Below are positions 56,605 through 59,089 of a stretch of DNA of 64,000 nucleotides, piece by piece. Location of the stretch: the NCBI GenBank assembly GCA_024698805.1, contig JAILQT010000145.1:1-64000 (forward strand), written 5' to 3'. The first letter of the stretch is position 1. Each line of letters opens with the position of its first letter. Origin of the DNA: Solobacterium sp. (GTDB lineage Bacteria > Bacillota_I > Bacilli_A > Erysipelotrichales > Erysipelotrichaceae). The notes under the pieces were generated by a model. The model saw only the letters and a program-made list of their open reading frames with translations. It had not been told where the DNA came from and made no database searches. The translations under genes and the position numbers were made by a program.

Positions 56605-56637
56605 AAAATCCGAGTCTTCCGACCCGGATTTTTTTAC
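56605..56637. terminator. intrinsic terminator between convergent operons
   Basis: AAAATCCG...CGGATTTTTTT. Confidence 0.75.
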
Positions 56638-56906
56638 AGGTTTCTGCAGTCTTCGATCCTTCGTTTGATGCCGTTCAGAACGACATATCCCTGCTGGGGC
56701 TCTTCATGGACGACATATCTTCTTTCGCTGTAGTCATGCTGATGACCGTATTTGGTCTCGCAGGTAAAGTCATCTTCACGCGGGACTGCATGGCCGTCCG
56801 AAGAATAGGTAACGTGCTTTCTGCGCATTACGGATGACAGGATCGACGCAGCCGCGATGATCACGATCCAGACAGCGATGATAATGAAAGGAAACATGAC
56901 GCGCAT
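56634..56906 (-). CDS. small single-TM protein, last gene of SPFH operon
   Basis: MRVMFPFIIIAVWIVIIAAASILSSV; 1-nt overlap (TAATG) with the upstream SPFH gene. Confidence 0.65.
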   Translation of the reverse strand: MRVMFPFIIIAVWIVIIAAASILSSVMRRKHVTYSSDGHAVPREDDFTCETKYGHQHDYSERRYVVHEEPQQGYVVLNGIKRRIEDCRNL

Positions 56907-57832
56907 TATTCTTTGACCGCTTCTTTGATCCCTTCAGCCAGGCCTGCGATACCCTGGATCTCGGAAGGGATGATGATCTTGGTAGCCTGTCCGTTGGCAG
57001 CTGCCTGGAAGGCTTCCAGACTCTTGAGTTTGATGACGGACTCACTGGGATCCGCTTCCTTGATGGCTCTGAGACCTTCGGCTGTAGCCTGGTGGATCTG
57101 ACGGATCGCTTCGGCGCGGCCTTCCGCTTCACGGATCTCTTTTTCTTTCTGCGCTTCCGCAGCGAGGATCGTTGCGCGCTTGGAAGCTTCCGCTTCGAGG
57201 ACGGCAGATTCCTTGCGTCCTTCCGCAGTAAGGATCATTGCCTGTTTTTCGCCTTCGGCTGTCAGGATGGCAGCTCTCTTTTCACGTTCAGCCTTCATCT
57301 GTTTTTCCATGGATTCACGGATCGCTGCAGGCGGCTGGATATTCTTCAGTTCGACACGCGTTACCTTGATGCCCCACGGATCGGTCGCGTAATCGATCGT
57401 CTGCAGCATCTGGGAGTTGATCTGCTCGCGGGATGTCAGCGTAGCGTCGAGCTCGAGGTCACCGATGATGTTTCGCAGCGTTGTGGCAGTCAGGTTCTCC
57501 ATGGCCATGATCGGATTCTCAACGCCGTATGCGTAGAGTTTCGGATCTGTGATCTTGAAGTAGACGACAGAGTCGATCTGCATCGTGACGTTATCCTTTG
57601 TGATGACCGGCTGCGGCGCGAAGTCCGCGACCTGTTCCTTCAGAAGCGCCCGGCGTGAGATCCTGTCGATGATCGGCAGCTTGAAATGGATGCCTGCGTT
57701 CCAGGTGCATCTGTATTTGCCGAAACGCTCGATAACGAATGCGCTTTCCTGCGGTACGACCTTCAGGCAGGAGAAGACAATAATTCCTGCGAGCACCAGG
57801 ACAACAGCTAATGTAATAACGAATTTGATCAT
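56906..57832 (-). CDS. SPFH/stomatin-like (QmcA-type) membrane protein
   Basis: CLKVVPQESAFVIERFGKYRCTWNAGIHFKLPIIDRISRRALLKEQVADFAPQPVITKDNV; AEGRAEAIRQIHQATAEGL. Confidence 0.9.
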   Translation of the reverse strand: MIKFVITLAVVLVLAGIIVFSCLKVVPQESAFVIERFGKYRCTWNAGIHFKLPIIDRISRRALLKEQVADFAPQPVITKDNVTMQIDSVVYFKITDPKLYAYGVENPIMAMENLTATTLRNIIGDLELDATLTSREQINSQMLQTIDYATDPWGIKVTRVELKNIQPPAAIRESMEKQMKAEREKRAAILTAEGEKQAMILTAEGRKESAVLEAEASKRATILAAEAQKEKEIREAEGRAEAIRQIHQATAEGLRAIKEADPSESVIKLKSLEAFQAAANGQATKIIIPSEIQGIAGLAEGIKEAVKE

Positions 57833-58029
57833 GCAATATCCTCCTGTTCATCTTCGTTTTGCACGGATTTGGGAATGTATCTGCCGCTCTTTTTATGTGC
57901 TTTCACACATTCTGTCAGCAGATATTCGATTTGTCCGTTGACAGAGCGGAAATCAGCCTCTGCCCATGCGGCCAGTTCCTTATAAAGCGAATCACTCAGT
58001 CTTAACGGGATCTGTTTTTTCGCGGGCAT
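57829..58029 (-). CDS. Arc-like ribbon-helix-helix DNA-binding protein (66 aa)
   Basis: KKQIPLRLSDSLYKELAAWAEADFRSVNGQIEYLLTECVKAHKK (RHH/Arc fold); overlaps both flanking SPFH genes. Confidence 0.82.
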   Translation of the reverse strand: MPAKKQIPLRLSDSLYKELAAWAEADFRSVNGQIEYLLTECVKAHKKSGRYIPKSVQNEDEQEDIA

Positions 58030-59033
58030 TAATACAATGTTCCGCTGTTGACGACGGGCTGGGCATCATGGTTGCCGCAAAGAACGACCAGCAGGTTGGA
58101 GACCATTGCGGCTTTTCTCTCGTCGTCTAATTCTACTGTATTCTTTTCCTGCAGACGGTCAAGTGCCATCTCCACCATACCTACAGCACCGTCAACGATC
58201 ATCTTTCTCGCGTCGATGATCGCGCTTGCCTGCTGTCTCTGCAGCATGACGGCAGCGATCTCAGGCGCATATGCAAGGTATGTGATCTTCGCAGCCAGGA
58301 TCTCGATGCCGGCTTCGTCGACGTGTTTCTGGATCTCTTCACGGATGCGTTCCGCAACGATCACGGAAGAACCGCGCAGGCTTCCGTCATCTGCGACGCC
58401 GTCGCCTGTCGTATCGATATTCGGGGCGACATCATACGGATAGAGTCGGACGATATCACGCAGCGCCGTATCGCACATCAGCGACAGGTATTCCTTGTAG
58501 TTATCCACATTGAATACGGCTTTTGCGGTATCCACGACATGCCATGTGACAGCGATGCCGATCTCGACGGGATTGCCGAGCACATCGTTGATCTTCTGCC
58601 TGTTGTTGTTCAGTGTCATGACCTTCAGGGAGATCTTCTTGGAACCGGATGTTTCCACAGCCTGCGTACCGTTGACAGTACCTGTGAGCAGGTTTACGGA
58701 TGTCTTGACGTCACCGCTCTGAGAGAGCTGTGTTTTCGCGGCGGGGTTGACGGCTGTGCAGAAGGGGTTGACGAAGTAGAAACCGTCACCCTTCAGTGTG
58801 CCGGCATATTTGCCGAACAGTGTCAGTACAAGCGCCTCCTGCGGCTTCAGGACCTTCAGTCCCAGGAACAGGATCCATCCGAATGCGAACCAGAGGACGC
58901 TGGCAGCGAGAAGGATGAAACTGCCTGTGCTTGCCCCGGCGATAAATCCGGCGATTGCGAGGATATATAATGCGATCAGTCCGATCAGGACCGGCATTCC
59001 TGCGGCTTTTCCGCCTAATACTCTTTCTTTCAT
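58029..59033 (-). CDS. SPFH/Band 7 domain protein
   Basis: VLKPQEALVLTLFGKYAGTLKGDGFYFVNPF; ILAAKITYLAYAPEIAAVMLQRQQASAIIDARKMIVDGAVGMVEMAL. Confidence 0.88.
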   Translation of the reverse strand: MKERVLGGKAAGMPVLIGLIALYILAIAGFIAGASTGSFILLAASVLWFAFGWILFLGLKVLKPQEALVLTLFGKYAGTLKGDGFYFVNPFCTAVNPAAKTQLSQSGDVKTSVNLLTGTVNGTQAVETSGSKKISLKVMTLNNNRQKINDVLGNPVEIGIAVTWHVVDTAKAVFNVDNYKEYLSLMCDTALRDIVRLYPYDVAPNIDTTGDGVADDGSLRGSSVIVAERIREEIQKHVDEAGIEILAAKITYLAYAPEIAAVMLQRQQASAIIDARKMIVDGAVGMVEMALDRLQEKNTVELDDERKAAMVSNLLVVLCGNHDAQPVVNSGTLY

Positions 59034-59051
59034 ACGTTAAATCACCTCCTG

Positions 59052-59089
59052 TGATATCAAAATGATATCATTTTGAGGCTAATAGTCAA
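59052..59089 (-). promoter_or_regulatory. promoter of SPFH operon with tandem TGATATCA operator
   Basis: Minus strand TTGACT-N16-TATCAT. TGATATCA at 59052-59059 and 59063-59070 (11-bp centre spacing), embedded in the 20-bp palindrome TCAAAATGATATCATTTTGA (59057-59076). Confidence 0.65.

Follow-up and report, generated by a model that had tools for sequence, protein, structure and literature searches.

Genetic organization of the SPFH operon

The window analyzed here, the whole stretch of 64,000 nucleotides from Solobacterium sp., carries on its minus strand an operon with the gene order SPFH1, RHH, SPFH2 and a 90-aa ORF, in which each gene overlaps the next by 1-4 nt. SPFH1 (58029..59033) encodes a Band_7 protein of 334 aa according to Pfam, and it is followed by the gene of an Arc-like RHH protein of 66 aa (57829..58029), the presumed repressor, which overlaps both adjoining genes. 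SPFH2 (56906..57832) encodes an HflK-like Band_7 protein of 308 aa and is optional among relatives, while the 90-aa ORF (56634..56906), with an N-terminal TM segment, comes after SPFH2 in the relatives that bear it. A terminator-like hairpin on the same strand (56605..56632) closes the operon. The Band_7 scores were 77.2 bits for SPFH1 and 138.5 bits for SPFH2 (Pfam cut-off 23.6), and SPFH1 gave no significant sequence match in the PDB. Many operons among relatives consist of SPFH1 and RHH alone.

Some loci present variations of this organization. In the five SPFH2-containing operons of the genus (L003, L005, L006, L007 and L017), the C-terminal tail of the RHH protein (window 57829-57880) is devoid of the usual IDxPxExDI end; this difference might mark a region of contact with a partner, or it could reflect the history of the clade. 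The operons of L106, L133 (DUF4003 gene) and L134 (YbjQ gene) are headed by those genes, behind the operator, and a YbjQ gene is also present near L015, which suggests that the DUF4003 and YbjQ genes share the function of the SPFH1-RHH operons. In [Ruminococcus] torques (L249:448-623), an operator-bearing SPFH1 is divergent from an operon with a YtrA-like GntR gene and an ABC ATPase gene. The SPFH1 of L026 / G001:C113 contains in-frame TGA codons and its matches are distributed over two frames, as might result from a frameshift or an assembly error.

Tandem boxes and promoter upstream of SPFH1

The original prediction placed in front of SPFH1 two identical TGATATCA palindromes 11 bp apart, which we confirmed to the base at 59052-59059 and 59063-59070. 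A 20-bp palindrome TCAAAATGATATCATTTTGA, also predicted, proved to be perfect (59057-59076), and the predicted minus-strand promoter, TTGACT-N16-TATCAT, whose -10 is overlapped by the boxes, was likewise confirmed. Its -35 hexamer TTGACT (59089-59084), assigned from the sequence and a consensus scan, and its -10 hexamer TATCAT (59067-59062) belong to a region that reads TTGACT-ATTAGCCTCAAAATGA-TATCAT-TTTGATATCACAGGAGGTGATTTAACGTATG on the minus strand; this sigma-70-type promoter scored 10/12 and was the top match of the consensus scan between 56.3 and 59.4 kb. Box 1 (59063..59070) is the one closer to the -35 and holds the -10. Since a TG (59070-59069) precedes the -10, box 1 has a second reading as an extended -10 (TGATATCAT). 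Box 2 (59052..59059) extends over the likely transcription start and lies directly next to the ribosome-binding site AGGAGG (59045..59050), recognized from the sequence. Between the boxes there is a 3-bp spacer (59060..59062), the sole conserved spacing. Lone TGATATCA boxes are not rare: the window has 5 of them, where 1.75 would be expected. The pair without mismatch occurs at a single locus of the genome, and when up to 3 mismatches were allowed a single further locus was found, with all 3 of them.

Conservation of the pair at SPFH1-RHH loci

If the boxes were the operator of this operon, they should recur in front of orthologous SPFH operons that keep the RHH gene, and the pair was indeed present in nearly all of them. 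The form TGATATYA-N3-TGATATCA precedes about 140 of the 143 non-redundant SPFH1-RHH operons of Erysipelotrichia and Clostridia. Within the genus it was found in 24/24 testable loci, whose flanks have diverged. Among 104 pooled upstream regions of SPFH1 orthologs, 99 had the pair with at most two mismatches, 95 with at most one and 43 exactly, all with the 3-bp spacer; every other spacing from 0 to 15 was found in at most 12 of these upstreams, and their shuffled versions gave zero pairs. The distance from the pair to the start codon ranges from about 15 to 107 bp, and the flanks and the remaining promoter are highly variable. A scan of species genomes contributed 80 further loci from Erysipelotrichaceae, Lachnospiraceae, Oscillospiraceae and others, where the RHH gene directly follows SPFH1 in all but one, located at a contig end. 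Samples at class and phylum level added more loci, among them some on contigs of 4-5 Mb and some with altered RHH beta-strands (KKQILLRL, KKQLVLRL).

Counted strictly, with at most two mismatches and within 300 bp, 134 of the 143 loci present the pair. In L004, L078 and L111 it is also there, and its apparent absence was an artefact of start-codon choice, the script having chosen a start too early. Where a gene has been inserted at the head of the operon, the site is found in front of the inserted gene (DUF4003; small TM protein plus YbjQ), as occurs in L106, L133 and L134. L098 is cut by the contig end and, at two loci with the RHH gene, the pair is degenerate (L309, 3 mismatches) or was not found in 664 bp (L310), the latter being the sole true absence among the 143. 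In L308 the site is present at SPFH1 although the RHH gene lies about 4 kb off.

In a set of 50 clostridial genomes the exact pattern had a frequency of about one per genome, and the reversed control gave zero. The specificity of the spacing, the shuffles and this genome-wide count rule out a chance origin of the pair. It should be noted that searching with two mismatches in AT-rich relatives returns mostly noise, and therefore 0-1 mismatches were allowed in later searches. Part of the conservation of box 1 could be due to its second role as an extended -10.

Association of the site with the RHH gene

The RHH gene is present in 40 of 70 genomes of the genus, and the exact site was found in 31/40 genomes with it versus 1/30 without it (Fisher p=1e-10). 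In the lone genome of the second group, G463, SPFH1 runs off the contig end before the position of RHH. When one mismatch was allowed, 39 of the 40 RHH-bearing genomes had the site, the exception being G028, which begins inside SPFH1. A comparable situation was observed among SPFH1 homologs taken from plasmid-collection records of five phyla (Bacillota, Deinococcota, Bacteroidota, Actinomycetota and Pseudomonadota): the pair is present at 9/9 SPFH1 loci with an adjacent RHH gene (Acetoanaerobium, two Deinococcus, the actinomycete Nonomuraea, Parabacteroides, Prevotella, Phocaeicola, Qipengyuania and Bosea) and at 0/6 without it (D. radiophilus, D. proteolyticus, two Pseudomonas, Rhizobium and Teredinibacter). 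The best pairs had 0-4 mismatches in the former and 5-9, the chance level, in the latter, with no overlap (p=0.0008, in a small sample). Bosea was the weakest positive, with 4 mismatches and one perfect box, and the operator could be recognized even in the 62% GC promoter region of an actinomycete. RHH paralogs located outside SPFH operons had no pair.

These data bear on the possibility that the pair serves some other, unlinked transcription factor as its operator and that the RHH protein acts elsewhere, which we regard as highly unlikely. Binding of the RHH protein to the pair is predicted, and the AF2 monomer is uninformative: it shows one long helix and no strand (pLDDT 71), whereas RHH chains fold as dimers. 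Furthermore, the operator core is constant across phyla while the first two contact positions of the RHH beta-strand vary (Q/S/N/K/A; P/L/V/I/A), with the arginine fixed. However, in the genus as in the five phyla the site co-occurs with RHH and not with SPFH1, and paired RHH dimers would require just such perfect palindromes at a distance of one helical turn.

Upstream of the Rhizobium SPFH1 (L322), near-perfect boxes TGATATCG and CGATATCA lie 25 bp apart with no adjacent RHH gene, and they possibly serve an unlinked regulator. On a Thermus thermophilus plasmid (L327:400-2668), a homologous RHH gene ends an ABC transporter operon that has neither SPFH nor TGATATCA boxes. A match in a phage collection (MT836356) comes from a faecal scaffold, unverified as such, in which SPFH1-RHH is truncated, and it was taken as bacterial DNA.

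Position of the boxes relative to the promoter

The distance from the end of an exact TTGACA to box 1 is 14 bp in 37 loci, 13 bp in 8, 11 bp in 13 and 2-3 bp in 15, other values being sporadic. With a spacer of 16-17 bp, the -10 lies in box 1 (TATYAT), in box 2 (TATCAT) or across the spacer between the boxes (CATAAT or TAAAAT). The clustering of these distances thus places the -10 inside the operator in every register. RNA polymerase and the presumed repressor share the same bases in all of them, and this speaks for a repression that works by exclusion. The most frequent departure from the motif is a T in place of C at position 7 of box 1 (27%), and it gives a better -10 in the box 1 and spacer registers. 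In addition, there is a weaker third box at exactly -11, with a mean of 4.1/8 matches compared to about 2.2 nearby, and at least 6/8 in 14/80 loci.

Some RHH proteins, AmrZ among them, can both activate and repress (PMC3325190), and the 66-aa protein could be an activator at this site. Nevertheless, in all registers the boxes cover the -10 and the start site, a placement that would be abnormal for an activator, and this reading has very little chance of being correct compared with repression.

The RHH protein and related systems

The 66-aa protein matched PF07878 RHH_5 with 26.4 bits (cut-off 26) and PF11903 ParD_like with 25.3 bits (cut-off 23), both near threshold. The PDB sequences closest to its profile were Arc repressors (1baz, 1arq and 1u9p), with marginal E values of 0.03-0.7; the Q-x-x-x-R of its beta-strand is in register with the QFNLR of Arc, and one homolog is labelled 'Arc family DNA-binding protein' by NCBI. 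As is generally known, Arc works with an 11-bp spacing, two dimers occupying half-sites one turn apart that overlap the promoter. The met boxes of MetJ, in turn, are 8-bp elements arranged contiguously, with a period of 8 bp.

The paired half-sites found here, about 11 bp apart on the promoter, are of the Arc type. The original prediction had invoked MetJ, and of that analogy the tandem 8-bp palindromes hold, with one RHH dimer predicted per box. The geometry is instead Arc-like, because MetJ boxes are contiguous and here the period is strictly 11 bp with a 3-bp gap; no MetJ-like contiguous boxes were seen, and no effector of the S-adenosylmethionine type is implied. As in P22 Arc, we propose two dimers on half-sites one helical turn apart overlapping the promoter. 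Unlike Arc, to which the similarity is weak, the present system has perfect-palindrome boxes, a conserved C-terminal tail, a chromosomal location and an SPFH partner.

Among RHH antitoxins, RelB dimers bind the same helix face of relO and the spacing of the half-sites is critical (PMC2812701). Paired half-sites, same-face dimers and autoregulation, predicted for the present system, would be common to both (PMC2812701), but the relO half-sites are of 12 bp and abutting, whereas here there are 8-bp boxes with a 3-bp gap and no toxin partner. The RHH protein could act as antitoxin in a toxin-antitoxin system of type II, with the site serving ordinary autoregulation, given that ParD_like scores above its cut-off and that NCBI names one homolog a HicB-family antitoxin. 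This is hardly credible, since nearly all loci have SPFH as the partner rather than an adjacent toxin, and many operons are limited to SPFH1 and RHH and include no toxin-like gene. Least credible of all is that the motif is just a conserved extended -10 with a chance duplication: TGATATYAT can be read in that way and the C to T drift at position 7 of box 1 makes a better -10, but both boxes are fully conserved at a fixed spacing while the -10 lies variously on box 1, box 2 or the spacer, and the pair appears about once per genome.

Secondary sites in front of exporter genes

Setting aside the sites attributable to SPFH1 and those at contig ends, 11/11 exact secondary sites precede ABC exporter genes. 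Six exact sites plus one with one mismatch came from the genus, and five from the 50 clostridial genomes (L204, L205, L206, L207, L208, L209, L211, L250, L252, L253, L254 and L255). All secondary sites are followed by an ABC ATPase gene and then by the gene of an ABC-2-type permease of one of several subfamilies (PF16949, PF01061, PF12698), and the distance to the -35 is mostly about the same as at SPFH1 promoters; in L255 the ATPase start is about 600 bp from the site. The genomes with exporter sites carry the RHH gene (G463 probably). Furthermore, in G013 an ABC ATPase/permease gene pair comes directly after SPFH1-RHH. Not all orthologs are targets, since in G446 a permease with 84% identity had no site.

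Exact sites ahead of ABC-2-type exporters indicate that the RHH protein probably governs a small regulon, and not itself alone. Together, the secondary targets and the counterexample of G446 depict a small regulon of variable composition, in which SPFH1-RHH is the constant member. The site had been proposed as the autoregulatory operator of the Arc-like protein of the operon. Its conservation and its co-occurrence with RHH support that proposal, but it is not solely autoregulatory, because copies of it precede ABC exporter operons.

Proposed mechanism and implications

Judging from the sequence comparisons, the region 59052-59070 is very probably the operator by which the Arc-like RHH protein represses its own SPFH operon, plus exporters in some relatives. 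One symmetric RHH dimer would occupy each TGATATCA palindrome, and two dimers would sit cooperatively one helical turn apart on the same DNA face; in some relatives, a third dimer may occupy the weaker box that lies upstream at a further 11 bp. With Arc and RelB as models, the natural reading is one dimer per palindrome, two or three in a row. Since the -10 and the start site are inside the operator, its occupancy would exclude RNA polymerase, and SPFH1-RHH-SPFH2-ORF would be repressed in a negative autoregulatory loop. In some relatives, unlinked operons of ABC-2-type exporters would come under repression by the RHH protein as well.

We therefore regard the module as a probable membrane-response regulon, which some signal would release. 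In B. subtilis, the sigma-W regulon includes the flotillins floA and floT (PMC8144471). SPFH proteins are thus under envelope-stress control there, and this parallel, if the biology is shared, suggests that the releasing signal may be envelope or antimicrobial stress; an alternative sigma factor activates in that system, whereas here an RHH protein would repress sigma-A-type promoters. Some operons of the PspA/CesT-Tir membrane-stress type have a terminal RHH gene, and one class has a band-7/flotillin protein (PMC11237479). Their gene content, unlike the present one, comprises PspA, CesT/Tir and DUF350, and no operator was seen described in the passages considered.

A more ambitious proposal, which we advance as tentative and rather unlikely, is that SPFH1-RHH is an ancient and widespread sensor of membrane state, in which the SPFH scaffold or its lipid domain would release RHH, perhaps through the C-terminal tail of the latter, so that the scaffold and ABC-2-type exporters would be induced via one operator common to five phyla.

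A search of openly licensed papers returned nothing that describes this operator or an SPFH-RHH pair. The kind of RHH protein and the regulatory logic are already known, while the operator itself, its reach across phyla and the link between SPFH and exporters were not found described. A cis-element that can be recognized across five phyla is unusual for bacteria, and the operator would let this regulon be annotated in many genomes. To our knowledge, the physiological roles of bacterial SPFH (stomatin/flotillin-like) proteins are poorly defined. A common repressor and operator would put SPFH1 and ABC-2-type exporters in one regulon, and a function in export or in envelope defence is predicted from this. 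The exporter-linked operator, present in some Bacillota, is a testable clue to the function of the SPFH scaffold, and it would provide a one-promoter assay for the inducer.
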